The notes: a model not told the origin generated them from the letters alone. A DNA stretch of 64,000 bases from Brooklawnia propionicigenes (GCF_030297015.1 NZ_AP028056.1:2924939-2988938), one strand, 5' to 3'. Positions 10,484 through 49,666 are shown, counted from the stretch's first letter. Translations and numbers: made by a program.

Positions 10484-10581
10484 CTCCCTTACACGGATTC
10501 GTCGTCCATTCTCGCACGCGACCGATGCCGCCCAGGTCGAGCGCTGGTTGGCTGTGATGCCAGACGGTAGACTTCCGGTTT

Positions 10582-11688: not shown

Positions 11689-11725
11689 TCATCGGAGCCG
11701 GCCTGGTGCGGTCCCGCGTGGCGAG

Positions 11726-11753
11726 TTGCTCGCTCGCGAGAACCGTTTACACT
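11726..11753 (+). promoter_or_regulatory. candidate promoter of ftsE
   Basis: TTGCTC and TACACT are spaced by 16 bp in the prfB-ftsE gap, about 93 bp upstream of the ftsE start. The call is based only on similarity to primary-sigma promoters. Confidence 0.45.
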
Positions 11754-11846
11754 CGTGACGTGGACTGAGAGTTTCTCAGGAAATCTGTCCATGATCCCGC
11801 CCGGGGAAGTGCCTCGCAGGTTGGAAGCGACGAACAGGACGGTCAC

Positions 11847-12533
11847 GTGATCACATTCGAGGATGTCTCGAAGACCTACTCAGGCCAGACCAAGCCTGCG
11901 CTACGGCACATCAACCTGCAGATCGACAAGGGGGAGTTCGTCTTTCTCGTCGGTACCTCGGGTTCTGGCAAGTCGACATTCCTGCGCCTGATCCTGCGTG
12001 AGTACCGGCCCACGTCCGGAAAGATCTTCGTCCTCGGCAAGGACCTCGGGCATCTGCACCAGTGGAAGGTCCCGGCGCTGCGGCGCCAGATCGGCACCGT
12101 CTTCCAGGACTTCCGGCTGCTGCCCGGCAAGACGGTCTATGAGAACGTGGCCTTCGGTCTGCAGGTGCTCGGCCGTCCGACCTCCCAGATCCGCCAGATC
12201 GTGCCTGAGACCATTGACCTGGTCGGGTTGTCAGGAAAGGAAGACCGCCAGCCCGAGGAACTGTCGGGCGGCGAGCAGCAGCGCGTCGCGATCGCGCGTG
12301 CCATCGTGAACCGGCCGAAGATCCTCATCGCCGACGAGCCCACCGGCAATCTCGACCCGCAGACCAGCGTCGGCATCATGAAGCTGCTGGATCGCATCAA
12401 CAAGCGCGACACCACCGTCATCATGGCCACCCACGACCAGACCATCGTCGACCAGATGCGCAAACGAGTCCTCGAACTCGATCAGGGAAACCTGGTCCGT
12501 GATCAGGTCCGGGGCGTCTACGGCACCGCGTGA
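11847..12533 (+). CDS. ftsE: cell-division ATP-binding protein FtsE
   Basis: FtsE is the ATPase of the FtsEX complex, which sits at the division septum and switches on peptidoglycan hydrolases. The 228-residue protein has Walker [10 protein letters not shown] (about residues 36-44), a Q-loop in VFQDF, signature LSGGEQQR (about 139), Walker B ILIADEPT and the switch His in MATHD. The start is GTG with AGGA upstream. FtsX follows 33 bp later. Confidence 0.96.
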
Positions 12534-12566
12534 GCGGCCGGACCTCTGCTAGGAGAGCACTGAAAT

Positions 12567-13481: not shown

Positions 13482-13514
13482 CATGCCGGACGTACAGACA
13501 GGGGGCTGAGTGTC

Positions 13515-34780: not shown

Positions 34781-36088
34781 CTACTTCTGGCCTTGTGCCG
34801 CCTTCATGAAGCGGCGCTGGTAGCTGATGACCTGGTTGGTCGAGGTGAAGCGGGCCAGGTAGGCCGGCTCGGCGGTCACCACGACGCGGTCGGCCATGTC
34901 GGAGAACTCATCACTGGCCAGCAGGTTGTCGATGTCGGGATAGTTGTGGTCACCTTCCATCGAGCAGATGATCAGCCGGGTGTCGGGCAGATTCGCATTG
35001 CGCAGCAACCGGAGGTTGTGGCGCACCGAATCCAGGCCGTCGCTGCCCTCGTCGTCGGTGATGTGGCGGTAGGCGATGATCGTCCGCGCCCGCGCCACGG
35101 CCTCCTCCGGATCCAGCCCGGCGTCCGTGCTGGCCAGGTAGTCGGTGGACAGCATGTAGTCGCTCAGTTCGGCGGCAGCATCGACGTCGCCACCGTCAAC
35201 GCGGGCGAGCAGTGCGACCATCTTCTCCGACTGCATCAGGCGATGCCTGATGAACGAGTTGATGAAGTACGGTCGGGCCTGCAGCGCCAGCTGGGTCTGG
35301 TAGCCCTCGAACATCAAGGTGTAGTTGATGCGGAAGCCGGCTTCGGTGAGCTTGAGGGTCAGATTGTGCCCGCGCAGTGCGTCCTCGGTGGCGGGCTGCC
35401 AGTAGCGGCGGTCGAGACGGCCGTCGCCGGTGAGCAGCTGGCCGACATTGTCGGCATTGACCGGACCGGTGTGCGGCACCTTGATGACAACACGATCCTG
35501 GCCGAGCAGTTCCTTGAAGAAGGTCGCCTCTTCCAGAATCTTGTTGAAATCCGGCTCGAATGGATTGTTGAGTTCCACCGAGATGTCACAGCCCGGACCG
35601 AGAATGCGTCCGAGTTCGGCCATCACCTCATCACGAGTGCTGAACTTGTGATCGATGTTCGCCTTGGGATTGTTGATGAACAGGTCGTAGATGATGCCGG
35701 GGTTGCAGGTGAGGTTGCCGAGCAGGGGAGCGATCGGGGCGACCTCGTAGGGGTTCGCGGAGTCGGCGGAGTAGATGACAGCAGTCGGGCGCTTGCGTCC
35801 GTCGCTGTCATAGCCGATGTCGCGCTTCAGGTTGACGTTCAGTAGGCCGTCGGGCTCCAGCTCGTATTCGAAGCGGAACCCGGCCGGAGTGTGGCCGGGT
35901 TCGGCCTTGAAGTAATCACAGATGCGGACGAACTCGTCGGTCACGCCGATGTGGGTCGCGGTCTCGGCGAGCAGCGAGAACTGCAGTTCGTCGATGGGTT
36001 GGGCGAGGACGCGGGAAAGGTGGTCACTGACGCCGCGCGCAGGCTCAAGACCGAGCGAACGCAATCGCAGTTGTAGCGGAGGTGTCAT
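34781..36088 (-). CDS. large transaldolase-like (Schiff-base aldolase) protein
   Basis: Residues about 120-290 follow the transaldolase barrel: LTCNPGIIYDL stands for the TTNPS strand, Lys203 in VVIKVPHTG is the expected Schiff-base lysine, and INYTLMFEGYQ with FINSFIRHRL matches the late NxTLxFSxxQ and SPFVGR strands. At 435 residues it is longer than TalC (about 220) or TalB (about 320), with about 110 N-terminal and 140 C-terminal extra residues of unknown role. It is the last gene of a leftward unit with an FGGY kinase and DapA-type aldolase. AGGAG precedes the start. Reaction and substrate are inferred only to class: transfer or cleavage of a dihydroxyacetone-type unit. Confidence 0.65.
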   Translation of the reverse strand: MTPPLQLRLRSLGLEPARGVSDHLSRVLAQPIDELQFSLLAETATHIGVTDEFVRICDYFKAEPGHTPAGFRFEYELEPDGLLNVNLKRDIGYDSDGRKRPTAVIYSADSANPYEVAPIAPLLGNLTCNPGIIYDLFINNPKANIDHKFSTRDEVMAELGRILGPGCDISVELNNPFEPDFNKILEEATFFKELLGQDRVVIKVPHTGPVNADNVGQLLTGDGRLDRRYWQPATEDALRGHNLTLKLTEAGFRINYTLMFEGYQTQLALQARPYFINSFIRHRLMQSEKMVALLARVDGGDVDAAAELSDYMLSTDYLASTDAGLDPEEAVARARTIIAYRHITDDEGSDGLDSVRHNLRLLRNANLPDTRLIICSMEGDHNYPDIDNLLASDEFSDMADRVVVTAEPAYLARFTSTNQVISYQRRFMKAAQGQK

Positions 36089-36133
36089 CGAGGATTCTCC
36101 TAACTTCTGATGGTTGATGTCGCCGTTGCGGGG

Positions 36134-36601
36134 TTAGTTGGTGGGTTTCAGGGAATAGCCGCGTTCGGTCAGGCCGCGTTCGATGAGGTTGATGGAACGC
36201 GTTTGTTTGATGATCAGGTAGCCGAGCGGGATGAAGAGGATCGATATCGCCCAGGCAAGCAAGACGTTGCTGGGGTAGATGAGGACGATGCCCACCAGCA
36301 CGAGGGTGCCCAGTAGCATCTCCGAATTGCGCCGACCCTTCAACAGCTTGCGGGTGGTCAGTAGATTGTCGACGATCGCGCGCTTCTCTGCGGACGTCTT
36401 CCGGCCCGACATGCGATCGTCGAGCTCTTGGTGGTGTTCCTTGTTCTCGCGTACCTGTTGGAAGATCCCCCGCGCAAGATAGCCGGCGGCGAGGATGGCG
36501 AATCCGACTGCCCAGATGGTCTGACCGCGACTGGCGAACAGACTCGCCAGGACACCCAGCGAGAAGACCGTCATCAGGTAGATCCCCCAGCGCTGGCTCA
36601 T
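36134..36601 (-). CDS. small four-helix membrane protein of the catabolic operon
   Basis: I do not recognise this 155-residue protein. It has two hydrophobic segments near the start (about 7-23 and 27-46), a charged central loop (about 47-95, rich in Lys, Arg and Glu) and two segments near the end (about 96-113 and 116-134). Its ATG overlaps the kinase stop as ATGA, so it is made together with the kinase. The layout resembles DUF-type helper proteins rather than a permease. A role in membrane tethering or as a transporter accessory is speculation. Confidence 0.6.
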   Translation of the reverse strand: MSQRWGIYLMTVFSLGVLASLFASRGQTIWAVGFAILAAGYLARGIFQQVRENKEHHQELDDRMSGRKTSAEKRAIVDNLLTTRKLLKGRRNSEMLLGTLVLVGIVLIYPSNVLLAWAISILFIPLGYLIIKQTRSINLIERGLTERGYSLKPTN

Positions 36602-37932
36602 ACTCTCAACTCCCCGTTGTAGTGTCGTGCCAACTCCACGTTACCGAGTACCGAGCAGTTGTCCACGACCTCGAAGCTGAAGCCGGGGAACTGCTGCTCT
36701 TTGAGCTTGATGAACGCGGGCGTGGACAGACCGCCGGTGAGTTTGATGACCGAGTCCATTGGCACTACATCGGCGGCCAGCCTCACCACGTCATAGAGCA
36801 CTTTGTTCATGGACTTGAGCATGGTGGCGAGCATCTCGTCACGGGTGGCGGCCAATGTCAGGCCATGCCAGGCTGCGGTGCGCTTGTCCAACGACTGGCG
36901 ATCGCCGGTCAGATAGGGATCGAAAGTCACCTCGCCGTCGGTGGTGTACCGGTCGATGCACGAAGGCAGGTATTCGGTGTTGAACTGCTCGCGGGTCATC
37001 TCGCGGCAGAACTGTTCGTAGAACCAGTCGATGCCGAATCCGCCGGCGGTGGTGGCGTAGATCTGCCAGATGCCGGGCAGCGCAGAGTTGCGTAGATAGT
37101 AGCCGGGATTGGTGACCGGTTTGTCGATCAGGACCGAGACCATGTCCGAACTGCCGGCGGTGTTCATGATGCGGCCCGCCCGATCGTTGTGGGCACCCAT
37201 CTGAGCGGCGGCCATGTCATTGGTGCCGACCGCGACCGGAATACCCGCCGGAATGCCCAGCTGTTTCGCAGGAGCGGGCAGCAGCGCGCCGAGTAGTTCA
37301 CCTGGGTTGCGGATCTCGCTGAACCATTCGTGTTTGAGGTCGAAGGCATCGAGTAGTTCAGCCGACCAGCCGCCCTGGGTCGTCGTTTCGTAGAGCCCCA
37401 GCATGGACGCGTTGACCAGGTCGACCATCCACTCGCCGGTGAGGCGATGATGGACATAGGTCGGCAGATGACCGATACGGTGGGTGCGTTCCAGCACTTC
37501 CGGCTCGTTCTGCTGCATCCACAGCACCGTCATGATGCCGGCGCCGCCGGCGAACGGATAGATGCCCGCGATCGACAGGTACCGGTCCTTGCCCACCTTC
37601 TCGTTGATGTAGTCGGTGATGGAGCGACTGCGGCGGTCCATGTGGGTGATGATGTTCGGGTACGCCAGGGTTCCGTCTTCGGCGATGAAGACCGGCGAGG
37701 GGGAGAAGGTGTCGTAGCAAAGGACCCCGATCTGCTCGCGCAATTCGGCGGGCAGCCGTTTGGCGGCCTGGCTCGTGGCATCGAAGAGCACCTCGGGGTC
37801 GATCTCGACCTTCTCACCCGGGAGCAGGATGTAGGGGTAATCCTGCTTTTCGGAGGCCAGCACACGGAGATCGTCGTCGAGGATCTCCATTTTCACCGCT
37901 GACGTTCCGAAATCGATCGACAGGTAGTACAC
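36598..37932 (-). CDS. FGGY-family carbohydrate kinase
   Basis: The 444-residue protein has the ASKHA fold: N-terminal phosphate-1 motif LSIDFGTSAVKM, a middle AVGTNDMAAAQMGA region, MNTAGSSDM and the C-terminal adenosine motif KLTGGLSTPAF. The FGGY family phosphorylates ketoses, polyols and related compounds such as xylulose, erythritol and apulose. It is shorter than glycerol or xylulose kinase (about 490-500). The start is GTG, 14 bp after the DapA-type aldolase gene. The substrate is unknown and probably determines the identity of the pathway. Confidence 0.88.
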   Translation of the reverse strand: MYYLSIDFGTSAVKMEILDDDLRVLASEKQDYPYILLPGEKVEIDPEVLFDATSQAAKRLPAELREQIGVLCYDTFSPSPVFIAEDGTLAYPNIITHMDRRSRSITDYINEKVGKDRYLSIAGIYPFAGGAGIMTVLWMQQNEPEVLERTHRIGHLPTYVHHRLTGEWMVDLVNASMLGLYETTTQGGWSAELLDAFDLKHEWFSEIRNPGELLGALLPAPAKQLGIPAGIPVAVGTNDMAAAQMGAHNDRAGRIMNTAGSSDMVSVLIDKPVTNPGYYLRNSALPGIWQIYATTAGGFGIDWFYEQFCREMTREQFNTEYLPSCIDRYTTDGEVTFDPYLTGDRQSLDKRTAAWHGLTLAATRDEMLATMLKSMNKVLYDVVRLAADVVPMDSVIKLTGGLSTPAFIKLKEQQFPGFSFEVVDNCSVLGNVELARHYNGELRV

Positions 37933-37946
37933 GGTGGATGGTCCTT

Positions 37947-38864
37947 TCAGGCCTGGAATGCCGCGAGTTCGGCCAGTCCGGTGTCCAGAGCCGCACGGAT
38001 CTGGGATTCAGCCTCGGCGCCGATGGGCCGGAGCGGACGTCGCGGCGCACCCGCGCGGTAGCCACGAATGTTCATGGCAGCTTTCAGGCTTGCCACGCCC
38101 TGCTTGCCGCCGCCGCTCTTGGCGACGCCTTGCAGTAGCCGGTAGTAACGACGAGCAGCTTCCGGGGAGGCAGTGAAGTAGAGGTCGGTGAGTCGTGCGC
38201 ATTCGTCCGGCAGGTAGTTGGCCGCCGAGACCACGCCACCGGGCCCGTCGAAGGCCAGGCAGGTCATGATGTTGCTCAGCGAACCCGCCATCACGGCGAA
38301 GTCGTCGCGCGACCCGGCGGCCACCATGTACTCGGTCATCATGGTCGGCGAGGTGTCCTTGATGCCCGCGATGTTCGGGTGGTCGGCCAGCTCGGCGAGC
38401 ACCTTCGGCGGAACAGTCACGCCATTGGCATAGCCCGGCGCCACGTAGAGCAGCACAGGAACCGGGCTGGCGTCGGCCACCGCTGTGTAGAAGTCGGCCA
38501 GTGCTGGGCCATCGTCGAGCTTTGCGAAGTAGTTCGGGGTGAGTACGGAGATGTAGTCGATGGCATCGGCCCAGGGCTCCAGCGTGCGGATGAACGCGAT
38601 CGTGGTGCGGGTGGATTCCCGTCCGGCGCCGACGATCAGGGTTTTGTCGCCCTTGTTCGCGGCTGCGGTCGCGATCACGGTGCGCGACTCATCGTCATCA
38701 ATGGCCTTGAACTCGCCGTTGGTGCCCAGCACCATGTAGCCGGCCACTGCGGTGGCCCCCCACATGCCGAAGTTGAGCTCGAGAGCGGCGACGTCAACCG
38801 CCTCATCGGCGGCGTCGAACGGTGTCGCGACGGGGATGATCACGCCGCGCAGTTGGTGGTTCAT
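37947..38864 (-). CDS. DapA/N-acetylneuraminate-lyase superfamily aldolase
   Basis: The 305-residue class I aldolase or dehydratase has GTNGEFKAI (about residues 47-55), the proton-relay Tyr140 in LLYVAPGYANG and the Schiff-base Lys169 in AGIKDTSP. The dihydrodipicolinate synthase, N-acetylneuraminate lyase and 2-keto-3-deoxy-sugar-acid aldolase families all use this framework. The absence of lysine-biosynthesis genes and the sugar-kinase neighbour favour a sugar-acid aldolase or dehydratase. GGAG lies five bases before ATG 38864. An 18-bp motif shared with two other sites is 91 bp upstream. Confidence 0.85.
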   Translation of the reverse strand: MNHQLRGVIIPVATPFDAADEAVDVAALELNFGMWGATAVAGYMVLGTNGEFKAIDDDESRTVIATAAANKGDKTLIVGAGRESTRTTIAFIRTLEPWADAIDYISVLTPNYFAKLDDGPALADFYTAVADASPVPVLLYVAPGYANGVTVPPKVLAELADHPNIAGIKDTSPTMMTEYMVAAGSRDDFAVMAGSLSNIMTCLAFDGPGGVVSAANYLPDECARLTDLYFTASPEAARRYYRLLQGVAKSGGGKQGVASLKAAMNIRGYRAGAPRRPLRPIGAEAESQIRAALDTGLAELAAFQA

Positions 38865-38954
38865 AGTGCTCCAAACAGATCGGCCGAAGAACACGACAAC
38901 AGACGAACAGGCATCCGGACGACCGCTATGTCGTTGTCAGTCCCGGCAACTGGC

Positions 38955-38972
38955 TTGCATACATGCTATAGG
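38955..38972 (-). promoter_or_regulatory. shared catabolic-island motif, copy A
   Basis: Read on the minus strand, this is CCTATAGCATGTATGCAA, 91 bp upstream of the DapA-type aldolase gene. It shares 11 of 18 positions with copies B and C, including the first six bases and the final CAA. The TATAGC part could be the -10 of a promoter, with an operator overlapping it. Confidence 0.5.
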
Positions 38973-39012
38973 AAAACCCAGAGCCCTGCCAGTTGTGAAC
39001 GCGCAATTGCCT

Positions 39013-39065
39013 CATCAAGGGGTCCGCGCCCTGCCAATGGTGGCAGCGGCGCGGATCTCTTGATG
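39013..39065 (-). terminator. nested hairpin between transporter and aldolase genes
   Basis: CATCAAG/CTTGATG, then TCCGCGCC/GGCGCGGA, then GCC/GGC form a long nested stem 22 bases past the transporter stop. There is no T-run, so it may be an attenuator that lowers expression of the downstream genes or protects the transporter message. Confidence 0.55.
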
Positions 39066-39086
39066 CACTTGCGGACCAGGTCTTGG

Positions 39087-40580
39087 TCAGAAGAAGAACT
39101 GGTAGAGGCCGATGAGGCCCATCACTGTCATCAGTACCGAGGAAATGATCAGCAGCACCTGCAGGAACGGCTTCATCCGCAGTTGCTTGGGCAGCACCTT
39201 GTATTCGGTGAACAACAGGATGAATCCCCACAGGCCCAGGGCGAAGACGCCGCCCAGGAGGCCCGCGAAGGCGATCACGGTGGTGTAGCTGACGCCGGTG
39301 AAGGCCAGGAAGATCGCGACGCCGAGAGTGTAGGTGGCAACGCCCAGCTTCACCTTGACCCAGTTGGCCGGGTTGGCGACGGCCGGGAATGCAGGCGCGA
39401 AGGCCTCCCGGAATGTGTAGGGGTACGTCGTGGTCAGCAGGGCCTGTTGCGAGCCCCAGAACACTGCCCACATGGCCACCATGTACAGGTACTTCAGCAC
39501 GGGATGAATAGTGGTGAAGAACGCGGCTTGTGCGGTCAGGATGTTGTTGTTGCCAGGAACTTCCTGCAGGCCGTCGGTGCCGAGGATGACAACGCCGAGA
39601 ACCATGAAGGTGATCGCGAAGATGCCGACTGCAGTAAAGGAGCTGACCGAGTCGATCTTGACGGCCTTGACGCCGTGGCCCGACCTCGCCAGGTTCTCCT
39701 CGTCCATGGCGATCGGAATGAGCTCGCCCTTGCCCAGCGCCTGCAGTTGCAGGTTGATGTCGGCATTGTCGGCGCGGCCGAGCATGCCCCAGGTCTTCTC
39801 GCGGAAGGTGCCGATATAGCCGATGTAGTCGTAGATGCCGCCGCCGAGAGCACCGATGTAGGCCAGAATCTCAACGGGAATGGCGACTGCCGCCACGTCC
39901 GGGAACTTCTGCTGGACCCATTCAGGGTATGCGGAGGGGATCTCCGGCAAGAACAGGCCGCGCACCATAGCACCGAGATCGGGCTGCGAGACGATGAGCG
40001 CGACGACCGAGAAGAAGACCAACAGACCAACGACGGCCGTCTGCAGGTTCTCGACAAAGCTGAAGTTCTTGACCCACAACGTCACGTAGGCGATGAGGCT
40101 CCAGGCGATGCCGGCCCACAGCCAAGGTTCCTGTGAGCCGGTGATGACCCAGGGAGTCCACTGGCTGAGGGCGAGAATGTAGGCGACGCTCCAAGCCGGG
40201 AAGCAGACGGCGGCCAGCGTGCCGAAGAAGACAGCCAGCCAGTGCCGGCCGATTCCCCGCTGCCCGACGCCGGGCAGCAGATGACCCATGCGTGCGAAGG
40301 GATGCTCGCCGGTGATGACCATGTAGCGCCCGGCGGCGTAGGTGACGGTGGCCTTGAAGATGGCACCGAGGACGAATGTCCACAAGATGGTGTAGCCGAA
40401 GACTGCGCCGCCTCGAGTGGCTTGGAAGACCTCGCCATTGCCGATCGTCACAGAAGCCAGGATGAATCCCGGCCCCACGATGCTGGCTAAGTCGAGGAAT
40501 CGCTTGGAAGCAAGTTTCGGGTCTTGCTCGGGATACCGCAAGGGCTCCAGTATGGGTGTCGTTTCAACCCCAGTACTCAT
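39087..40580 (-). CDS. Nramp-fold membrane transporter lacking the metal-binding motifs
   Basis: The 497-residue protein has 11-12 hydrophobic segments and the Nramp-family beginning GPGFILASVTIG. In metal transporters helix 1 carries DPGN and helix 6 carries MPH. Here the corresponding regions are IGNGE (about residues 46-50) and GGGIYDY (about 246-252), so the metal-coordinating Asp, Asn, Met and His are not seen. The gene heads a sugar-catabolic unit, so I infer an organic substrate for the pathway rather than Mn or Fe. ATG 40580 has AAAGGAG seven bases upstream. A divergent Nramp relative with altered metal specificity remains possible. Confidence 0.75.
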   Translation of the reverse strand: MSTGVETTPILEPLRYPEQDPKLASKRFLDLASIVGPGFILASVTIGNGEVFQATRGGAVFGYTILWTFVLGAIFKATVTYAAGRYMVITGEHPFARMGHLLPGVGQRGIGRHWLAVFFGTLAAVCFPAWSVAYILALSQWTPWVITGSQEPWLWAGIAWSLIAYVTLWVKNFSFVENLQTAVVGLLVFFSVVALIVSQPDLGAMVRGLFLPEIPSAYPEWVQQKFPDVAAVAIPVEILAYIGALGGGIYDYIGYIGTFREKTWGMLGRADNADINLQLQALGKGELIPIAMDEENLARSGHGVKAVKIDSVSSFTAVGIFAITFMVLGVVILGTDGLQEVPGNNNILTAQAAFFTTIHPVLKYLYMVAMWAVFWGSQQALLTTTYPYTFREAFAPAFPAVANPANWVKVKLGVATYTLGVAIFLAFTGVSYTTVIAFAGLLGGVFALGLWGFILLFTEYKVLPKQLRMKPFLQVLLIISSVLMTVMGLIGLYQFFF

Positions 40581-40836
40581 CGGATCGCTCCTTTGTGACC
40601 GGGGAGCTGCGCCGGTTGCGACAGCTCCAGAGGCCCGGTGGTCCATCCTTGGCCGCACTGGCCGGAGAACCGCTGGGTGTGGGACGCCGCGCATCGCGCG
40701 ACGCTGGAGAATGCAGAGTCGTCTGCTTGTGAGTCTTCCGGCACCTGGAACAGGCCCACCGGGGTCGTAGTCCGAATCACTGGCAACGCTGCCTCCTTCA
40801 TGGGCTACAACTGGTCTCCTGCGTCCAGGTGCAGCG

Positions 40837-40854
40837 CCTATATGCTACATACAA
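40837..40854 (+). promoter_or_regulatory. shared catabolic-island motif, copy B
   Basis: CCTATATGCTACATACAA on the plus strand lies 257 bp upstream of the transporter start. It shares CCTATA and CAA with copies A and C. Confidence 0.45.
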
Positions 40855-41054
40855 CGCGCCCGTCAGCGCAAGGTCACCCCAGCCCTCCCGGTTCGGCGAT
40901 TCAAAAAGAGTGTCACTAGGTGATATACGAACTGATCTTGCGCTCGACGGGCCATTTCCGGCGAGCATAGCATCCGTCTGCCCAGCTACTGGTCACGGCT
41001 GGCGCAGAAAATCGTATGCAAAAGCACTCACTCAGGGTCGAATCGTGTGAACTT

Positions 41055-41072
41055 CCTATAGCATTGACTCAA
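41055..41072 (+). promoter_or_regulatory. shared catabolic-island motif, copy C
   Basis: CCTATAGCATTGACTCAA on the plus strand lies 117 bp upstream of the rightward dehydrogenase gene. Its first 10 bases are identical to copy A. Confidence 0.5.
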
Positions 41073-41188
41073 TCAACTGGTCACCGACCGACCACTGACT
41101 GCTGACCCGCGTGAAGATCAAGGCACCGACGCCGCGCTGGCGTCGGGGCGATGAGGGACCGCAGTCGCTTCAGAAGGGAAGCAACTTC

Positions 41189-42142
41189 ATGGCCATCAAC
41201 ACCATTGCTCTGGTGGGCGCGGGTTACATGGGCGGCGGGATCGCTCAGGTTTTCGCGATCGCTGGGCACCCCGTCATCCTGGCGGACGCCGACGCCGAAC
41301 TTACGAAAAGGAACCTTGCCCGGCTGATCGCCGAGGCCAAGGACTGGGAAGGGCGGGGCCTTTTCCTGCCCGGCCAGGCTGCACTTGTCGAGAAGCATCT
41401 CAGCGCGGCGCCGAGCATCGAGGAAGCTGTTGCCGATGCCGATTACATCCAGGAGGCCGTGCCGGAGAAGCCCGAGATCAAAGACGCCGTGTTGCGACGC
41501 ATCGAGGCTGCCGCTCGTCCGGACGCGATCATCGCGTCCAATACCTCGACGCTACCGATCGGCGGTCTTGCCAAGTCACTGAACAAGGCCGACCGCTTCC
41601 TGGGCGTCCACTTCTCGAACCCATCGCCGTTCATTCCCGGCGTCGAGGTGATCTTGCACGCAGGAACCGACGAGTCACTGGTGCCCGAGGTCGAAGAACT
41701 CGTCCGCTCGACCGGGAAGCTGACCGCGCGGCTCAGTGATTCGCCCGGCTTCGTGCTCAACCGCCTGCAGTATGCGCTGCTCAAGGAGGCCATCAGCATC
41801 GTCGATGACGGGGTAGCCAGCGCCGAGGACGTCGATATCATCACCCGTACCACCTTCGGATTCCGGCTGCCGTTCTTCGGCCCGTTCGCGATCGCCGACA
41901 TGGCCGGCCTGGATATCTATCTCGACTGCTTCAAGACCTTTGAGGACAACTTCGGCGAGCGTTTCGCGACGCCCGAAGGGCTCAAGAAACTCGTCGCCGA
42001 GGGTCATCTGGGCACCAAGTCGGGTGGCGGCTTCGTGATCCCGGCCGGCGACACCACCGACCTGGTGGCCTACCGCAACACCGCCTACGCACGGCTGCAG
42101 CAGCTGCTTGCCGAGCTCGGTGAGGCTCCAGGCGTCAAGTAA
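41189..42142 (+). CDS. 3-hydroxyacyl-CoA-dehydrogenase-family oxidoreductase
   Basis: The 317-residue protein has the NAD-binding GAGYMGGG (residues 10-17) and all the active-site positions of the 3HCDH family: SNTS (about 117-120), His141 in GVHFSNP, Glu153 in PGVEV and Asn191 in FVLNRL. The C-terminal helical domain is present. The family also includes L-gulonate 3-dehydrogenase and L-carnitine dehydrogenase, so in this sugar-gene setting a 3-hydroxy sugar-acid dehydrogenase is more likely than a fatty-acid enzyme. ATG 41189 follows a GAAGGGAAG site. The TIM-barrel gene follows 50 bp later. Confidence 0.8.
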   Translation: MAINTIALVGAGYMGGGIAQVFAIAGHPVILADADAELTKRNLARLIAEAKDWEGRGLFLPGQAALVEKHLSAAPSIEEAVADADYIQEAVPEKPEIKDAVLRRIEAAARPDAIIASNTSTLPIGGLAKSLNKADRFLGVHFSNPSPFIPGVEVILHAGTDESLVPEVEELVRSTGKLTARLSDSPGFVLNRLQYALLKEAISIVDDGVASAEDVDIITRTTFGFRLPFFGPFAIADMAGLDIYLDCFKTFEDNFGERFATPEGLKKLVAEGHLGTKSGGGFVIPAGDTTDLVAYRNTAYARLQQLLAELGEAPGVK

Positions 42143-42192
42143 CACTTTGCCGGACACAGCAAACCTGCCTATCAAGAGGAAGACAGTAGACA

Positions 42193-43125
42193 ATGTCGAA
42201 GTACAACCCGGACAATTGGCCGATCGCCTGCCCCATGCTGGTCTTCGGCGGGCTCGACTCGAAAGGCGGTCCCATTCAGGATGCGGATGCCTCCGAATGG
42301 CACGCGCAGATGAAGGAGGTCGCCGACCTCGGCTTCACCGAACTGGATCCGCTGGATGTATGGGTGCGAGTCGGCGATCTTTCGCCGCAGCGGTTGGACG
42401 AGTTCAAGCAGGCCTTGGCCGACACCGGGCTCACTGTTCCGGGTATCTCCACCTCCCGTAAGTCGGTGGTCGATGCCAGGCGCGGCGACGAGTACCTGGC
42501 TTATGGCCACCGGGTCATCGATGCGGCAGTGTCGCTGGGCGCGGAGGTAGTTTCGTTCGGCTTCTTCCAGGCCACTACGCCGGCCCAGAACGCCGCCGTG
42601 TGGTTCTGGCTGGCGCAGGGGCACAAGGACTCGGCTGACCCAGCGATCTACGAACTGGCGGTCGACCGCATCCGCGAACTCGCTGTGCATGCCGAATCCG
42701 TGGGTATCCAGATCACCTTGGAGATGTATGAGGATACCTATCTGGGAAGCTCGGACGGCTGCGTGAAGTTCGTCACCGATGTCAATCACCCAGCTTGCGG
42801 GCTGAACCCCGATCTGGGCAATCTGGTGCGGTTGCATCGTCCCTTGGAGCCGGTGACCGAGGCATTCGAGAAGATGCTGCCGTACACGAACTACTGGCAC
42901 ATCAAGAACTACACTCGCGATTTCGATCCGGCCACCGGAGCCTATGCGACTCATCCGGCTCCACTGCCGGGCGGGTACGTGAACTATCGGCCGATCATCG
43001 CCCGGGCCCTCGAACTCGGCTTCGAGATGCCGTTCATGGTGGAGCACTACGGGTCGGATTCGCTGTGGAATCTTGCGCAGTCGCGCGAGTACATCCGTTC
43101 GGTGCTGCGGGCCAAGATGGCCTGA
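42193..43125 (+). CDS. xylose-isomerase-like TIM-barrel sugar isomerase/epimerase
   Basis: The 310-residue protein has the AP-endonuclease-2/xylose-isomerase-like barrel. Candidate metal ligands at barrel ends are Glu177 in ITLEMYED, Asp207 in LNPDLGN, His236 in YWHIKN and Glu284 in MVEHYG. Members isomerise or epimerise free or phosphorylated sugars, including EryC-type tetrulose-phosphate enzymes and apiose isomerase. It is co-transcribed with the upstream dehydrogenase and followed by a strong terminator. Whether the substrate is free or phosphorylated cannot be told. Confidence 0.85.
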   Translation: MSKYNPDNWPIACPMLVFGGLDSKGGPIQDADASEWHAQMKEVADLGFTELDPLDVWVRVGDLSPQRLDEFKQALADTGLTVPGISTSRKSVVDARRGDEYLAYGHRVIDAAVSLGAEVVSFGFFQATTPAQNAAVWFWLAQGHKDSADPAIYELAVDRIRELAVHAESVGIQITLEMYEDTYLGSSDGCVKFVTDVNHPACGLNPDLGNLVRLHRPLEPVTEAFEKMLPYTNYWHIKNYTRDFDPATGAYATHPAPLPGGYVNYRPIIARALELGFEMPFMVEHYGSDSLWNLAQSREYIRSVLRAKMA

Positions 43126-43142
43126 TCACTGATCAGCGGCAG

Positions 43143-43175
43143 ACGCCCCTCCGGAGATTCCGGAGGGGCGTTTTT
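43143..43175 (+). terminator. terminator of the rightward catabolic pair
   Basis: A perfect 13-bp stem (43143-43155 with 43159-43171) with a 3-base loop runs into TTTTT. Confidence 0.92.
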
Positions 43176-43180
43176 CGTCG

Positions 43181-44470
43181 TCAGTCCAGCGGGGCGGAGG
43201 CCGGGAACAGATCGCCGTTCTCGTCGAATTCCAGTTCGGCCGGTTCGGTCAGCTGGGTGAGTGCCGGATTCGCGGCGACCTCGTCCAGCAGGGGTTCGGA
43301 AACCCAGATCTCGGCCACATCGAGGGTATCGACGATGCGGACGATACGAGCCTTACTCGGGTCCGGAAGCAAAGTCAGCCGTGTCGCGCATTGCAGCGCC
43401 ATCTTCTGGTTCGCCATGAACGGGGCGATTCGTGAGCCGGCGATGCCGTTCGATGTCACACCATTGGTGAACATCGCGACGAAGTCGATCTGGTTGAACA
43501 GCCGGGCCGTGGTGATGTCGGCCAGGCCGATGCCGGTCGCATTTCCGTGCGATTCGGGCGTCAGATCGAGCACCACGATCTGGTTGACGTTCATTTCGGG
43601 ATTCTTGACCCCGATCAGCGAGCGCCCGAGCACATTCGGATCCATGCCATCACCGGAGATGTTCTTGCCCATGTAGTCGACGACCAGCACATCGATATCG
43701 TGGATCAACAGTTTCGGCAGATGCCGACGCGATTCTTCGAGCAGCGTGGGTTCGGTCTGCTCGATCTTGCCGGTTTCGATCAGCACGACATCGCGGGTCT
43801 GATCGAGCGAGTTCTCCAGTACACCGACTCCGAAGATGATGTTGCCCCTCTCGAACATCACCGGCGCGATCGTCTGGATCATCTTGCCCGCCATGTGCAG
43901 GCCACGGGAGTGCGCCTGCAGAGCGCCGCGGTGCTTGCCGACGCCGATGGCGGCCATCTTCATCAGGCCCGACTCGATCGGCCCGACGATATCGGTGTGC
44001 GCCTTGATCCGGTTGCACAAGATCAATCCGTCGCAGGCCAGCGCATCGGAGGAGAAGAGCACCTTCAGCCCGTCCACCTCGCCCAGCTCGGTGACGTCGA
44101 GGCTGGAGATGATCTCGCAGCCGGTCGCCTCCGGGGTGAAACCCATGCCGAGCAGCATCTGCCGCTGTCCATCGGCCGTGGCCCCGCCATGGCTGCCCAT
44201 GGCGGGGATGATCACCGCAGAGGCACCCTTCGACTTCACCCAATCGGCCAGCGTGCGAACGATCAGCGGCATATTCGCGATGCCGCGGCTGCCGACCGTG
44301 ATCCCGATCCGCTGCCCGGGCTTGACGGTATCGGCGAACTCCGGTTCGGCGAGTTGCTCATTGATGCGTCCCGCAACGTCGTCGAGCCGCGGGGCCTGCA
44401 GATCCTGATGAACCCTGGCGAACCGAGGCAGTGCGATGTCGTCAAGAATCAGATTGAGTGAGTTCGTCAC
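43181..44470 (-). CDS. DUF2088 (LarA N-terminal domain-like) protein
   Basis: The 429-residue protein belongs to the DUF2088 family that includes the nickel-pincer lactate racemase LarA. It shows ITVGSRGIANMP near residue 52, PAMGSHGGAT (about 90-99), NRIKAHTDIVGPIESGLMKM (key Lys, His and Asp; about 148-167) and IGVGKHRGA. Some LarA relatives racemise or epimerise other 2-hydroxy acids, and DUF2088-only members are uncharacterised. No larB, larC or larE cofactor genes are in the window. GTG 44470 has GGAG upstream, 16 bp after the kinase gene, so it forms an operon with the DhaK-DhaL fusion. Epimerisation of a hydroxy acid is inference. Confidence 0.75.
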   Translation of the reverse strand: MTNSLNLILDDIALPRFARVHQDLQAPRLDDVAGRINEQLAEPEFADTVKPGQRIGITVGSRGIANMPLIVRTLADWVKSKGASAVIIPAMGSHGGATADGQRQMLLGMGFTPEATGCEIISSLDVTELGEVDGLKVLFSSDALACDGLILCNRIKAHTDIVGPIESGLMKMAAIGVGKHRGALQAHSRGLHMAGKMIQTIAPVMFERGNIIFGVGVLENSLDQTRDVVLIETGKIEQTEPTLLEESRRHLPKLLIHDIDVLVVDYMGKNISGDGMDPNVLGRSLIGVKNPEMNVNQIVVLDLTPESHGNATGIGLADITTARLFNQIDFVAMFTNGVTSNGIAGSRIAPFMANQKMALQCATRLTLLPDPSKARIVRIVDTLDVAEIWVSEPLLDEVAANPALTQLTEPAELEFDENGDLFPASAPLD

Positions 44471-44486
44471 AGGTTTCTCCTACAGG

Positions 44487-46223
44487 TCAGTTCGTCTCGG
44501 ACGCGAATAGATCCGCATCGCCCAGAGCCCGCATCAGCATGCAGAATGATGTTGCTCCCGGGTCGGGCACGCCCAGAGATTTTTCACCGAGCACACGCGA
44601 GCGCCCGAGCTTCGACACGAAATCCGCGGTCCGGTCTGCGGCGCTCTGCGCAGCGGTGGTTGCCTGCTGCCAGGCTTCGGCCAGTGGGACGCCTTCGGCC
44701 TGCTTGGCACTGAGGGTGTCGGCGAAGGGAATGAGCGCGTCCACCATCGTCTTGTCGCCGACCGTAGCGCCGCCCAGCCGCTGCACCGCGTCGACCGCGT
44801 CGCGCACCCCGGTCACGATGGCCTGCGGTGACGCCGGGGTCTCATCGCCCAGCGCCCTGCCGAAGGCGGTCAGTATGGCGCCCCACAGCGCTCCGGACGT
44901 GCCGCCCGCACTTTCGGACCACTGGGCGCCGGCACGCACCAGCAAGGTGCCCGCGCCGGCACCTGCCTCGGCCGCCCGATGGGCGGCCTCCACGGCGCCG
45001 GTAGCGCCGTAGCGCATGCCCTGGCCATGATCGCCGTCCCCGGCGATCGCATCCAACTTGCCCAACTCGGCTTCGTTGTCGATCGTCACCTGCTTGATGA
45101 CCTCCAGCCCCTTCACCACCTGGGCCGCCAGCGCCTGGGAGGCTTCGCTGCCCGGGGTGATCGGAGTCTCGGCCTGGTCGGTGTCATCGCTGACCTGGCG
45201 TTCGGCTCGCTCGGCGACCGCGCCGCGTCGCAGCGCGATGGTATCGACCGGATCGCACCACAACTCCTCCAGCTCATCGTCGAGGAAGGTGATGGTCAGT
45301 GAGATGCCGGCCATGTCCAGGCTGGTCATCAGTTCGCCGACCTCCGGCAGCACCGGGGTGACACCCGCGTCGGTCAGCCGCTCGGCGACTCGGTTCCAGA
45401 CCACATAGAGCTCTTCGCACTTGACCGTGCCGAGCCCGTTCAGCAGGACGATCGCCCTACCGGAGTAGCCCTCGGTACCGATCTCCAAAGCTTCCGCCAT
45501 GACGCCATCCACCAGCAGATCGGCGATCTGGCTCGCGGTGCCCATCGGCACCTCGTAGACTCCCGGCTCTCCGTGCACGCCCAGCCCGACCGACATCTGA
45601 CCGGCGGGGACATGGAACAGCGGCTCCGCGGCGCCCGGCAGCGTGCAGCCGTCGAAGGCCACGCCGAGCGAGCGGGTGCGATCATTGGCTCGCCAGGCGA
45701 GTTCGGTGACCTCGTCGATGGTGTGGCCGCGCTCGGCGGCGGCGCCGGCAATCTTGAAGACGACCACATCGCCGGCCACGCCGCGGCGTTTGCGGGTGTC
45801 ATCGCGAGGTCCGGAGGCCACGTCGTCGGAGACCTCGATGGTGCGCACGTCGTAGCCCTCGGCGCGCAGACGTTCGGCGGCCTGGCCGAAATGCAGCACA
45901 TCGCCGGCGTAGTTGCCATAGGTGATGATGATGCCGCCACCGTTGTCGGCGGCCTTCGCGACGGAGTAGGCCTGGGAGGCAGACGGTGAGGCGAAGATAT
46001 TGCCACAGACCGCGCCATGGGCCATGCCGGGCCCGACCCAGCCTGCGAAGGCGGGAAAGTGACCGGAACCGCCACCGACGATCACCGCCACCTGGCCGTC
46101 GGGGCTGGCGGTGGCGCGCACGACACCGCCATGCACTGCCTTCACATACTGCGGGTAGGCCGTCGCCATCCCGGACACAGCTTCGAGCGCGAAGTTGGAC
46201 GGATCGTTGAACACACGAGTCAT
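44487..46223 (-). CDS. DhaK-DhaL fusion kinase (dihydroxyacetone/erythrulose kinase type)
   Basis: The 578-residue protein joins a DAK1 substrate domain (about 8-330) and a DAK2 ATP domain (about 375-575; LDAIAGDGDHGQG holds the Mg-ATP aspartates). This is the ATP-dependent single-chain type. His217 in LGVHGEPG is the residue that covalently binds the ketose. The usual GSGHEPAH motif reads GSGHFPAF (about 52-59), so Glu and the second His are replaced by Phe, which suggests a pocket different from that of ordinary dihydroxyacetone kinase. Erythrulose kinases of tetritol pathways belong to this family. GAGGAG precedes ATG 46223. Confidence 0.88.
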   Translation of the reverse strand: MTRVFNDPSNFALEAVSGMATAYPQYVKAVHGGVVRATASPDGQVAVIVGGGSGHFPAFAGWVGPGMAHGAVCGNIFASPSASQAYSVAKAADNGGGIIITYGNYAGDVLHFGQAAERLRAEGYDVRTIEVSDDVASGPRDDTRKRRGVAGDVVVFKIAGAAAERGHTIDEVTELAWRANDRTRSLGVAFDGCTLPGAAEPLFHVPAGQMSVGLGVHGEPGVYEVPMGTASQIADLLVDGVMAEALEIGTEGYSGRAIVLLNGLGTVKCEELYVVWNRVAERLTDAGVTPVLPEVGELMTSLDMAGISLTITFLDDELEELWCDPVDTIALRRGAVAERAERQVSDDTDQAETPITPGSEASQALAAQVVKGLEVIKQVTIDNEAELGKLDAIAGDGDHGQGMRYGATGAVEAAHRAAEAGAGAGTLLVRAGAQWSESAGGTSGALWGAILTAFGRALGDETPASPQAIVTGVRDAVDAVQRLGGATVGDKTMVDALIPFADTLSAKQAEGVPLAEAWQQATTAAQSAADRTADFVSKLGRSRVLGEKSLGVPDPGATSFCMLMRALGDADLFASETN

Positions 46224-46346
46224 CGACGACTCCTCAGATACGGACGCGGCCTGCGTCTGGGTAAATGGTTACTCGGTTCGGTATTCGCTTCTACGGGAAT
46301 CCCGGGCAGCCGGCCAGACTCGGACCGGCCGTGCTGGGCACTGAAT

Positions 46347-46352
46347 ATCATA
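46347..46352 (-). promoter_or_regulatory. candidate -10 element upstream of the DhaK-DhaL gene
   Basis: TATGAT on the minus strand lies in an AT-rich patch of the 253-bp gap, about 125 bp upstream of the kinase start. A clear -35 is not visible. Confidence 0.35.
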
Positions 46353-46476
46353 CACGATCCATGGCTTGCGGTGCCGCAGCGGCCGCCGGTCAGGGTGGCC
46401 GGGCAGCGCAACGGGCCGCCGCCCGCAAGGGCAACGACCCGTCGTCGCTATATGGAGTGGCGCAGTTCGCGGCTCC

Positions 46477-47400
46477 TTAGAACGCGCTCACTCGCCGGAA
46501 GATGCTCTCGGCATCGATGCCCGCATTGGCCAGTAGGCCGTCGTAGGGGCCGGCGGGCTGGTAGGCGTGCGGCACGCCGATCGGCAGCAGCCTGGCGGGT
46601 TGTTCGCGGCAGAGCAGTTCGGCGACGGCACCGGCCAGGCCACCGGTCTCGTAGTGCTCTTCGACAGTGACCACCGCACCGGTGCGCGCTGCCGAAGCAC
46701 AGATGAGTTCGGCGTCCAGGTGCGAGGGCGTCGGCATGCCGATCAGATCGACCGAGATATCGGCCGCGGCGAGCTGCTCGACCGCGGCGACGGTCTGCAC
46801 CGATTCGTAGCCCGTGGTGATGATGGTGACATCCGAGCCGTCACGCAGGTGGCGGCCCTTGCCGATCTCGACGGGTTCCTCGGGGAACAGATCCGGCAGG
46901 CCCTGGGCGCCGATCCGCATGTAGGTCGGTCCGACGTGGTCGAGCATCGCGGCCACGCAGCTGCGGATCTCACCGGGATCGCTGGGGGCGAAGACCACCA
47001 GGCCGGGGATCATGCGCATGATGGCGTAATCCTCGAGGGAGTGGTGGGTAGCCCCCAGATCCGCATAGGTGAATCCGCCGTTGCGTCCGACGATCTTGGC
47101 GTTCTGGCCCATGTAGCCCAGGTCGTTGCGCACCATTTCGTAGCTGCGCGACGTCACGAACGGGGCGATGGCGGCGAAGACGGGAATCAATCCCGTGGTG
47201 GCCAGACCGGAGGCGATACCGGTGACGCCCTGCTCCATGATGCCGAATTCGAAGTAGCGCTCGGGATAGGCCTTGGCGAAATCGCCGAAGCCCGAACTCT
47301 TGCCGGAGTCTGCCGACAGCACCACGATGCGGTCGTTGTCCGCGGCAATGGCGGTCACCGCGCGTCCGAATTCCTTGCGGGGGTCGGTCAGCTGACTCAT
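46477..47400 (-). CDS. transketolase, C-terminal subunit
   Basis: The 307-residue protein carries the pyrimidine-binding and C-terminal domains of transketolase. Glu56 in FGIMEQG is the catalytic glutamate that activates thiamine diphosphate. Together with the gene upstream it forms a two-subunit transketolase, which moves a two-carbon ketol unit between sugar phosphates. The ATG overlaps the stop of the N-terminal subunit gene as ATGA. Split transketolases of this kind are common in dedicated catabolic pathways, for example apulose-4-phosphate transketolase. Confidence 0.92.
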   Translation of the reverse strand: MSQLTDPRKEFGRAVTAIAADNDRIVVLSADSGKSSGFGDFAKAYPERYFEFGIMEQGVTGIASGLATTGLIPVFAAIAPFVTSRSYEMVRNDLGYMGQNAKIVGRNGGFTYADLGATHHSLEDYAIMRMIPGLVVFAPSDPGEIRSCVAAMLDHVGPTYMRIGAQGLPDLFPEEPVEIGKGRHLRDGSDVTIITTGYESVQTVAAVEQLAAADISVDLIGMPTPSHLDAELICASAARTGAVVTVEEHYETGGLAGAVAELLCREQPARLLPIGVPHAYQPAGPYDGLLANAGIDAESIFRRVSAF

Positions 47401-48248
47401 CGGGTCACCTTCTGTTCGCATTCGGCGATCTTCGCGTCCAGTTCCGTGATCGCCTGCTCCAGCTCGCCCTCGGCGGGCTTCCAGTAGTGATAGGCCAGCG
47501 TGTCCTCGGCGAAGCTGATGCCCTTGGCCTTGGTGGTGTGAGCGACGATCACGCTCGGCTTGCCCGGCGTGAACGGTGCGGTGTCCAGCGCGGCGAGGAT
47601 CTCGGTCATGTCGTTGCCGTTGATCTCGCGGGCCGCCCACCCGAAGGCCTCGAACTTGCCGGCGATCGGAGCCATGTTCATGACCTGGGCGACGGGTCCT
47701 GAGATCTGCAGGCCGTTGTTGTCGACGATCGCGATGAGATTGTCGACCTTGTGGTGAGCTGCCGCGGCGGCGGCCTCCCAGTTGGAGCCCTCCGGAAGCT
47801 CGCCATCGCCCATTACCGTGAAGACTCGGGCCGTCGTCCCGGCCAGCCGCAGGCCGAGCGCCGCACCGACCGATATCGACAGGCCATGACCCAGCGCACC
47901 AGTGTTGCCCTCCACACCTGGCAGCTTGTGCATGTCCGGATGTCCGCCCAGGGCGGTCATCATGGCGCCGTAGGTCTGGAGCAGTGCCGGATCGAAGTAG
48001 CCGCGTTCGGCGAGCACTCCGTACTGGCCCATGGCCTTGTGTCCGGCACTCAGCAGGAAACGGTCACGTTCAGGCCAATCCGGGCGAGCCGGATCGACGT
48101 TCATGATGTCGAAGTACAGCGCCGTGATGAGGTCGATCGCCGACATGGCACCGCCCAGATGGCCGGAATGACCGGTTTCGATCATCCGGACGACATTGCG
48201 GCGGGCTCGGGCAGCATGCAGTTCGAGTTCGGCTACCCGATCGCTCAC
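47397..48248 (-). CDS. transketolase, N-terminal subunit
   Basis: The 283-residue protein holds the diphosphate-binding domain. It shows HSGHLGGAMSAID near the start, HGLSISVG (about 121-128) and the thiamine motif GDGE (147-150) ending in DNN (176-178). The length is right for the N-terminal half of a split enzyme. GTG 48248 overlaps the rpiB stop by four bases, and the 3' end overlaps the C-terminal subunit gene. The coupling implies balanced synthesis of both halves with RpiB. Confidence 0.92.
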   Translation of the reverse strand: MSDRVAELELHAARARRNVVRMIETGHSGHLGGAMSAIDLITALYFDIMNVDPARPDWPERDRFLLSAGHKAMGQYGVLAERGYFDPALLQTYGAMMTALGGHPDMHKLPGVEGNTGALGHGLSISVGAALGLRLAGTTARVFTVMGDGELPEGSNWEAAAAAAHHKVDNLIAIVDNNGLQISGPVAQVMNMAPIAGKFEAFGWAAREINGNDMTEILAALDTAPFTPGKPSVIVAHTTKAKGISFAEDTLAYHYWKPAEGELEQAITELDAKIAECEQKVTR

Positions 48249-48685
48249 AGCTGCTCGGCCTCAATCTCCACCACGCGGGCGACCTTGACACCACTGCGCG
48301 AATTGGGATCGAAGGTGTTGGCAAGATAGAGCTCGAGCAGCACCTTCGCGGTTTCGACGCCGGTTGTCTGGGCGCCCATGGCGATCATGTTCGCATTGTT
48401 GCTCAGCGTGGCGCGCTGAGCCGAGTACGGGTCTGCGATCAGTGCGCAGTAGGCGCCCTTGACCTTGTTCGCCGCCAACGAGACACCGATGCCGGTACCG
48501 CAGACCACCACACCGCGGTCGTACTTGCCCTCGGCGACCGCGTGCGCCACGTCAGCTGCGACATTGGCATAGATCGGGTCATCCGAGCCGAAATCGGTCA
48601 CCTCATGACCGAGTGATTCGGCCTTGGCGATGAGTGCCTTCTTGAGCTCTGCCGCGTTGGGATCACAGCCGAATGCGAGCTTCAT
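48245..48685 (-). CDS. rpiB: RpiB-family sugar-phosphate isomerase
   Basis: The 146-residue protein has the RpiB/LacAB fold with the active-site Cys62 in VVVCGTGIG and the anion-binding region NKVKGAYCAL. The family interconverts aldose and ketose phosphates, for example ribose 5-phosphate with ribulose 5-phosphate, or erythrulose 4-phosphate with erythrose 4-phosphate in tetritol catabolism. It is the first gene of a coupled rpiB-transketolase operon, which favours a catabolic role over housekeeping. The GG-rich leader gives only a weak ribosome binding site. Confidence 0.9.
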   Translation of the reverse strand: MKLAFGCDPNAAELKKALIAKAESLGHEVTDFGSDDPIYANVAADVAHAVAEGKYDRGVVVCGTGIGVSLAANKVKGAYCALIADPYSAQRATLSNNANMIAMGAQTTGVETAKVLLELYLANTFDPNSRSGVKVARVVEIEAEQL

Positions 48686-48750
48686 GGATCTTCCTCTCCC
48701 GTGAAGATGATGAGCGGTGGCGGGCAAACCCGTGCGCCGCATTACCTCTA

Positions 48751-48761
48751 AGATATATGAT
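48751..48761 (-). promoter_or_regulatory. AT-rich candidate promoter/operator of rpiB
   Basis: AGATATATGAT in the rpiB/SDR divergent gap is the only AT-rich patch and reads TATATC as a possible -10 on the minus strand, about 66 bp upstream of rpiB. Confidence 0.35.
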
Positions 48762-48886
48762 CGAGCGCAGGCATGCAGCCGATGGGTTGTCCGTGACGAT
48801 ACCCCTGCGCGAGGCTGCCAGCCTGTTCGCTACGTCATCTTTTCGCTGCCTGCAGTGGTGCGGGCGCCGTCCCAAGGAGGAATCGA

Positions 48887-49666
48887 ATGTCGGAAACTGG
48901 AAACCCGTTTCCCGAGCAGCGCACTGCAGTGGTCACCGGGTGTGGTGCCCCGGCCGGTATCGGACGCCACGTCGCCCGCAGGCTGGCGTTGTCCGGGTAC
49001 AACATCGCGGCTGTCGACATCAACCCCGCGGTAGCGGACTTCGCCGCTGAACTTGCCGCGGAGTTCACCGAACAGAAGACCATCGGTGTGGTGTGCAATA
49101 TCGCTGACGAGGCCTCGGTCAACGCCGCCTGGCAGCGTATCGATGCCGAACTGCCGCAGGTCGTGGGCCTGGCCAATGTCGCCGGGATCGCGTGTCCCAC
49201 TCCGCTGCTCGAACTGACCGTGGACGAGTTCGACAAGGTGATGGGCGTCAACGCACGCGGCACGATGCTCATGATGCAGTACGGTGCTCGGCGGATGATC
49301 CAGGCCGGGGTCGGCCGGATCGCCAACTTCTCGTCCATCACCGCCTATGACGGCGGCGGTACGTTCAGCAAGATCGCCTATGCGGCCGGCAAGGCAGCGG
49401 TCATCGGGCTCACCCGCGGCGGTGCCCGCGAACTCGGTCAGTACGGCATCACCACCAACTGCATCTGTCCGGGACCGATCGACACCGAGATCATGGGCGG
49501 CAAGCTGACCGACGAGCGCAAAGCATCGATGTCGTCCAACATTCCGCTCGGTCGTGTCGGTCAGCCGAGCGAGATCGCCGACGTCGTCGACTTCCTGCTG
49601 TCGCAAGGCGCCAGCTTCGTCAACGGTGCGACGTTCAATGTCGATGGCGGCAAACACATGAAGTGA
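48887..49666 (+). CDS. short-chain dehydrogenase/reductase of the catabolic island
   Basis: The 259-residue classical SDR has the NAD(P)-binding TGCGAPAGIG (about residues 17-26), NVAG (about 97-100), Ser149 or Ser150, and the catalytic pair Tyr165 and Lys169 in YAAGK. The acidic Asp44 after the second strand (AAVDIN) favours NAD. It is divergent from rpiB across a 201-bp gap; AAGGAGG lies six bases before the start. A polyol or sugar dehydrogenase is the likely role, the exact substrate unknown. Confidence 0.88.
   Translation: MSETGNPFPEQRTAVVTGCGAPAGIGRHVARRLALSGYNIAAVDINPAVADFAAELAAEFTEQKTIGVVCNIADEASVNAAWQRIDAELPQVVGLANVAGIACPTPLLELTVDEFDKVMGVNARGTMLMMQYGARRMIQAGVGRIANFSSITAYDGGGTFSKIAYAAGKAAVIGLTRGGARELGQYGITTNCICPGPIDTEIMGGKLTDERKASMSSNIPLGRVGQPSEIADVVDFLLSQGASFVNGATFNVDGGKHMK

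Follow-up and report, generated by a model that had tools for sequence, protein, structure and literature searches.

Tetritol use involves a DhaK-type kinase and an RpiB-type isomerase. The oxidative D-apionate pathway, attributed to Carter et al. 2018, reportedly consists of ApnO, OiaC, LerK, LerI, and an erythrulose-4-phosphate isomerase. Literature searches on the apionate enzymes returned one incidental mention, and some of the enzyme names are given in PMC11747546. In Mycolicibacterium smegmatis and Brucella, tetritols are converted via erythrulose phosphates into D-erythrose 4-phosphate (Huang 2015, as cited in PMC12780249). A chemically related scheme operates on L-gulonate: a dehydrogenase of the 3HCDH family works together with a decarboxylase of beta-keto acids, and the product is L-xylulose (PMC12435205). 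On the side of uptake, Nramp-related proteins are described as lacking the metal motifs, with most of their groups uncharacterised (PMC12873925).

Two loci served as references for the apionate enzymes. A Rhizobium plasmid locus annotated with OiaX (3-oxo-isoapionate-4-phosphate decarboxylase) also encodes a four-carbon acid sugar kinase, TPI, a PGDH_C dehydrogenase, and an RpiB that passes the D-erythrulose-4-phosphate isomerase model. An Erwinia locus combines DhaKL, TPI, a TIM protein, PGDH_C, and RpiB; by elimination from the known apionate pathway, we take PGDH_C to be ApnO and the Erwinia TIM protein to be OiaC.

The window analyzed here is a stretch of 64,000 nucleotides from Brooklawnia propionicigenes (NZ_AP028056.1:2924939-2988938), which holds at 34781-49666 an island of 13 genes (12 if the split transketolase is counted once) that we read as a sugar-acid island:

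34781-36088, minus strand: transaldolase-like protein (PF00923), 435 aa; Pfam score 35.2 bits, cut-off 27
36134-36601, minus strand: small membrane protein of 155 aa that probably works with the Nramp-related transporter
36598-37932, minus strand: FGGY-family carbohydrate kinase; FGGY_N 119 bits
37947-38864, minus strand: DapA-family aldolase/dehydratase; DHDPS 103 bits; start set at codon 11 (ATG) of the ORF as listed
39087-40580, minus strand: Nramp-related transporter without the DPGN metal motif; start inferred from relatives
40581-41188: divergent intergenic region between the Nramp-related and 3HCDH genes, bounded by the assigned gene starts
41189-42142, plus strand: dehydrogenase of the 3HCDH family, proposed to oxidize aldonates at C3; start at MAINTIALVG
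42193-43125, plus strand: TIM barrel of the xylose-isomerase-like kind, proposed to decarboxylate 3-oxo acids; closely related to PDB 5TNV
43181-44470, minus strand: nickel-pincer (NPN) isomerase of group 22 (NF052515), proposed aldonate C2-epimerase
44487-46223, minus strand: DhaK-DhaL fusion kinase (Dak1+Dak2), proposed erythrulose kinase
46477-47421, minus strand: split transketolase, C-terminal half; start inferred from a relative (L035)
47397-48248, minus strand: split transketolase, N-terminal (ThDP) half
48245-48685, minus strand: RpiB-family isomerase with SNNAN for HNDA, proposed erythrulose-4-phosphate isomerase
48887-49666, plus strand: SDR oxidoreductase; homologues (58-64% identity) neighbor the TIM gene in many loci of Brachybacterium, Rothia, and Kocuria

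Pfam and NCBIfam back every gene named in the preliminary description at its coordinates (TAL_FSA, FGGY_N, DHDPS/DapA, Nramp, 3HCDH, AP_endonuc_2, Dak1+Dak2, the N- and C-terminal transketolase halves, LacAB_rpiB, and SDR), so that its gene list is confirmed, with 13 genes when the transketolase is counted as two. Its placement of the island between conserved blocks also holds: a block with SecA and Ku lies on the left, and one with NAD-glutamate dehydrogenase on the right.

Inside the genus, the island acts as one unit, because its gene order is kept in relatives and its markers are present or absent together. Two further species hold the complete set of 13, identically ordered (52-91% identity), and a metagenome-assembled genome apparently of the same species (Propionibacterium sp., L060) carries the 13 genes at 98-100% identity. 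The transaldolase-like gene of the left operon and the TIM-barrel gene of the middle section are both found in four of eight genus genomes, our own included, and are jointly missing from the other four. In an empty-site comparison, one genus genome without these two genes keeps SecA-Ku, and the right flank was not found on the stretch examined. The additions that are specific to the genus are real and co-inherited.

Outside the genus, only part of the island recurs. Searching named genomes with the TIM-barrel protein yielded 80 loci, and all cassette counts refer to the 57 TIM-anchored loci with full flanks, own species left out. DhaK-DhaL accompanies the TIM gene in 51 of the 57 and a carboxylate-type transporter (GntP, ACS-type MFS, or TctA) in 42; a 3HCDH is present in 37 and a PdxA-like dehydrogenase in 15, the two never together; RpiB follows with 35, TPI with 33, and the SDR with 27, the last not consistently in mycobacterial cassettes. 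Thus, a core of five genes (3HCDH or PdxA-like dehydrogenase, TIM, DhaKL, RpiB, and acid transporter) is widely conserved, and it spreads over Actinobacteria, mycobacteria included, and Alphaproteobacteria. In mycobacteria, for instance, TPI, RpiB, DhaKL, and GntR, arranged in this order, face TIM, 3HCDH, and GntP. The carboxylate-type transporters and the GntR-FCD regulators of the cassette suggest an acid substrate. The complete 13-gene set was not found among 79 other TIM-anchored loci, none of which has the NPN isomerase, the split transketolase, DapA, or the transaldolase-like protein, while FGGY gave weak matches only; the tie of these genes to the core therefore rests on synteny within one genus. 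Co-occurrence in related genomes, which the preliminary description had named as a check, holds for the full set within the genus and fails outside it, the five-gene core alone being widespread. Its remark that no described pathway has all these genes together stands, as far as literature searches reach.

The lower arm of the proposed pathway is made up of DhaK-DhaL and RpiB. The DhaK-DhaL fusion is 52% identical to the DhaKL of the Erwinia ApnO-OiaC locus and falls under the same subfamily model. In all 47 cassette RpiBs that were aligned (own-species copy included), the ring-opening histidine is replaced by serine, whereas a likely housekeeping RpiB of the same genome reads HNDAR. The cassette enzymes show the S-N-N/D-A signature of D-erythrulose-4-phosphate isomerases, which reads SNNAQ both in 5IFZ and in the reference RpiBs from Erwinia and Rhizobium. 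The best solved relative of the window RpiB, 5IFZ, passes the D-erythrulose-4-phosphate isomerase model NF051858; the window protein scores 133.4 bits against a cut-off of 240, so the signature counts as support for an erythrulose-4-phosphate role and not as membership of the family. This signature supports the earlier proposal that DhaK-DhaL phosphorylates a tetrulose and RpiB isomerizes the tetrulose phosphate, with erythrose 4-phosphate as the end point. The island itself has no TPI, although the wider cassette often includes it; with TPI looked at within the island only, this speaks marginally for a D-erythrulose over an L-erythrulose route. As a separate observation, an AT-rich element close to ATCATAYATGATC lies in two island intergenic regions, at 46347-46359 and 48750-48762, and is conserved in two relatives; the sites are well placed for a shared operator, but the window count at 3 mismatches is not above chance, which makes the element a lead.

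How the substrate enters this arm is where we depart from the preliminary description, which had an SDR oxidize a polyol. On such a route, the SDR would convert a tetritol or pentitol into a ketose for DhaK-DhaL and RpiB, and the acid genes would serve another substrate. The SDR gene adjoins the RpiB operon, divergently, its product matches the GolD/DthD family model below threshold, and tetritols are degraded via erythrulose phosphates to erythrose 4-phosphate (PMC12780249). Nevertheless, we consider a polyol entry quite unlikely. The SDR occurs in 27 of 57 loci, inconsistently in the mycobacterial cassettes, against 42 of 57 for a carboxylate-type transporter, and the island lacks a polyol transporter of known kind. 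The conserved partners are an acid dehydrogenase, a TIM barrel, and carboxylate-type transporters, and the window has a 2-hydroxyacid NPN isomerase. The polyol reading was probably wrong at the entry step.

The split transketolase, confined to the genus among the loci examined, shares the island with a sugar kinase, and the two together could suggest an apiose route, in which the FGGY protein would be an apulose kinase and the transketolase would act on apulose 4-phosphate. This is very improbable: by BLAST, none of the island proteins is a homologue of ApnO or OiaC, and the island has no apiose-type ABC transporter.

The entry step we favor uses the two genes in the middle of the island. The product of the first matches 3HCDH_N (156 bits) and 3HCDH (79 bits) in Pfam. 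The NCBIfam matches of the second, the TIM protein, are weak and point to 3-epimerases, so it could, judging from its sequence, be an isomerase or epimerase instead of a decarboxylase; a literature search found no paper on structure 5TNV. One same-genus genome has a second TIM-type gene (G176 C1:156919-157821, L171), whose product shares 54% identity with the window protein; next to it lie genes for a GntR-FCD regulator, an MFS protein, and a 2-hydroxyacid dehydrogenase. An assignment of 3HCDH and TIM as ApnO and OiaC was rejected, since the OiaX locus has PGDH_C and the window proteins have no BLAST match to the references; a search confined to the island proteins gave no BLAST match to ApnO (PGDH_C) or OiaC from any of them. 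Six actinobacterial loci hold an ApnO-OiaC-type pair together with a window-type TIM gene, and 3HCDH-TIM and ApnO-OiaC therefore look like parallel entry pairs into one erythrulose arm.

The third gene of the middle section had been listed as a DUF2088 protein, and it is present as stated; its nickel-pincer nature had been missed. It belongs to NCBIfam NF052515 (nickel pincer cofactor-dependent isomerase group 22), with 475.9 bits against a cut-off of 400, and the genome encodes the NPN cofactor genes larB, larC, and larE. H94, H158, K171, and H187 are invariant in 13 homologues and match, as assigned by spacing, the two catalytic histidines, the cofactor lysine, and the Ni-binding histidine; the K-to-H spacing of 16 equals that of the canonical LarA of the same genome. 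Sequence and profile searches did not match the group-22 enzyme to LarA among solved structures, the proteins being too divergent. The genome carries two further LarA-like genes (L169 and L170), of which the L169 copy looks like canonical LarA. Relatives of the group-22 gene adjoin UxaC, altronate or arabinonate dehydratase, DapA, and TctABC/TRAP genes, and a Rubrobacter relative has in its neighborhood a member of the Nramp family together with PdxA and a four-carbon acid sugar kinase. In six TIM loci (L078, L081, L083, L091, L123, and L138; Brachybacterium where the genus is named), an FMN-dependent 2-hydroxyacid dehydrogenase and a D-2-hydroxyacid dehydrogenase are found near the TIM gene. 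It is possible that this pair performs a two-step C2 inversion that the NPN enzyme could replace.

The Nramp-related protein of the left operon has TIGNGE where canonical Nramp TM1 has DPGN, and four homologues likewise show IG[NS]GE or LGSGE. It passes NCBIfam NF037982 (73.7 bits, cut-off 50), and the label 'divalent metal transporter' arises because that cut-off is loose. The homologues sit near sugar-acid or TIM-cassette genes; separately, on a Haladaptatus plasmid (L162), an archaeal Nramp-family gene lies near UxaA-family hydrolases, an MFS gene, and TctABC. The 155-aa membrane protein matches no Pfam or NCBIfam family above cut-off, and a 30% homologue adjoins the Nramp-related gene in two Brachybacterium loci (L081 and L083), which suggests that the two form a two-protein transporter. 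The FGGY kinase falls under every NCBIfam equivalog cut-off, and the DapA-family protein is likewise under the NCBIfam cut-offs. The transaldolase-like protein has a lysine in VVIKVPHTG, resembling the Schiff-base region of transaldolases; among the 396 genomes sampled from the phylum, one other than our own encodes a full-length match (56%), and a search of plasmids gave none. This relative (L161, G370, 8337-14195) lies in a run with a GntR-type regulator, a class II aldolase, a putative HAD phosphatase, DhaL, and DhaK.

It is conceivable, although we lean against it, that the island joins two unrelated modules, with the Nramp-DapA-FGGY-membrane-transaldolase operon handling a second sugar or a 2-keto-3-deoxy acid, a reading compatible with our explanation of the other genes. 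Of the five left-operon genes, only Nramp reliably accompanies the TIM cassette elsewhere. However, left-operon and middle markers are found in the same four of eight genus genomes and are jointly missing from the rest, and elsewhere in the phylum a relative of the transaldolase-like gene neighbors DhaL and DhaK.

The gene identities, the conservation of 3HCDH/PdxA, TIM, DhaKL, RpiB, and the acid transporter, and the residue signatures of RpiB and the NPN enzyme are results of computation. On balance, we think it somewhat probable that the island breaks down a sugar acid via a 3-oxo acid and a tetrulose to erythrose 4-phosphate. The reaction can be rationalized into four predicted steps. (i) Uptake and epimerization: an aldonate, most likely a C5 pentonate, would be taken up, possibly by the Nramp-related transporter, and the NPN group-22 isomerase would invert C2, making both C2 epimers usable. 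(ii) Oxidation and decarboxylation: the 3HCDH enzyme would oxidize C3 to give the 3-oxo acid, from which the TIM-barrel enzyme would remove CO2 to leave a tetrulose (erythrulose). (iii) Phosphorylation and isomerization: DhaK-DhaL would phosphorylate erythrulose, and the RpiB-type enzyme would isomerize erythrulose phosphate to erythrose 4-phosphate. (iv) Return to central metabolism: the split transketolase, perhaps with the transaldolase-like protein, would pass on erythrose 4-phosphate. We infer all reactions, the stereochemistry, and the chain length (C5 over C4 or C6) of this route; C5 is favored on the grounds that the product from a C4 acid would be dihydroxyacetone, with nothing for RpiB to do, and that from a C6 acid a pentulose. 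The roles given to Nramp, DapA, FGGY, the transaldolase-like protein, the SDR, and the transketolase are putative as well.

The C4 case can be stated as a tetronate route, in which threonate or erythronate would be oxidized at C3 and decarboxylated to dihydroxyacetone, and DhaK-DhaL would yield DHAP. DhaK-DhaL and TPI suit a path from dihydroxyacetone through DHAP to GAP, PdxA-like enzymes stand in for 3HCDH in 15 of 57 loci, and the Rubrobacter group-22 gene lies beside a four-carbon acid sugar kinase and PdxA. Such a route is unlikely, as it gives nothing to do to an RpiB that is present in 35 of 57 loci with a tetrulose-type signature, and the ApnO-OiaC pair, which feeds the erythrulose arm, shares six loci with the cassette.

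More broadly, and as a tentative proposal that we would rate as rather doubtful in its entirety, the pentonate reading could describe a route, not described in the literature searched, that proceeds via C3 oxidation, TIM decarboxylation to erythrulose, and DhaK phosphorylation across mycobacteria and many other Actinobacteria and Alphaproteobacteria, supplemented in the window genus by an NPN C2-epimerase and an Nramp-related carrier of sugar acids, not of metal. Literature searches found no description of this sugar-acid route. If true, it would give the first function for nickel-pincer group 22 and predict a sugar-acid pathway in mycobacteria. It supplies candidate roles for an uncharacterised nickel-pincer group, for structure 5TNV, and for a largely uncharacterised branch of the Nramp superfamily, and three dehydrogenase families (3HCDH, PdxA-like, and PGDH_C) may feed one tetrulose arm.

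Several known systems can be compared with the island. Its transporter shares the PF01566 fold family with Nramp metal transporters and Nramp-related proteins (PMC12873925) and differs from the former in that DPGN is replaced. The group-22 enzyme resembles aldonate epimerases of the LarA superfamily such as GntE (PMC7583248) in its NPN cofactor, its conserved catalytic and Ni-binding residues, and its sugar-acid context; unlike GntE-type epimerases, group 22 has no assigned reaction in the literature examined. The proposed entry pair parallels the L-gulonate route (PMC12435205), where 3HCDH-family C3 oxidation is likewise followed by beta-keto-acid decarboxylation to a ketose, but there the chain is C6 and the decarboxylase is a DUF1907 protein instead of a TIM barrel. 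With tetritol use, the island would share a path from erythrulose phosphates to D-erythrose 4-phosphate by a DhaK-type kinase and an RpiB-type isomerase, whereas its predicted entry is by an acid and an acid dehydrogenase, and the wider cassette has carboxylate-type transporters. The D-apionate route offers a further parallel, in that a C5 acid is oxidized and decarboxylated before a DhaK-type kinase and RpiB lead to erythrose 4-phosphate; the island dehydrogenase is 3HCDH and not PGDH_C, BLAST detects no similarity between the island's TIM protein and the OiaC candidate, and TPI is missing. In summary, the core is best read as a version of the oxidize-decarboxylate-phosphorylate scheme of apionate catabolism, new in that different enzymes would carry it out.
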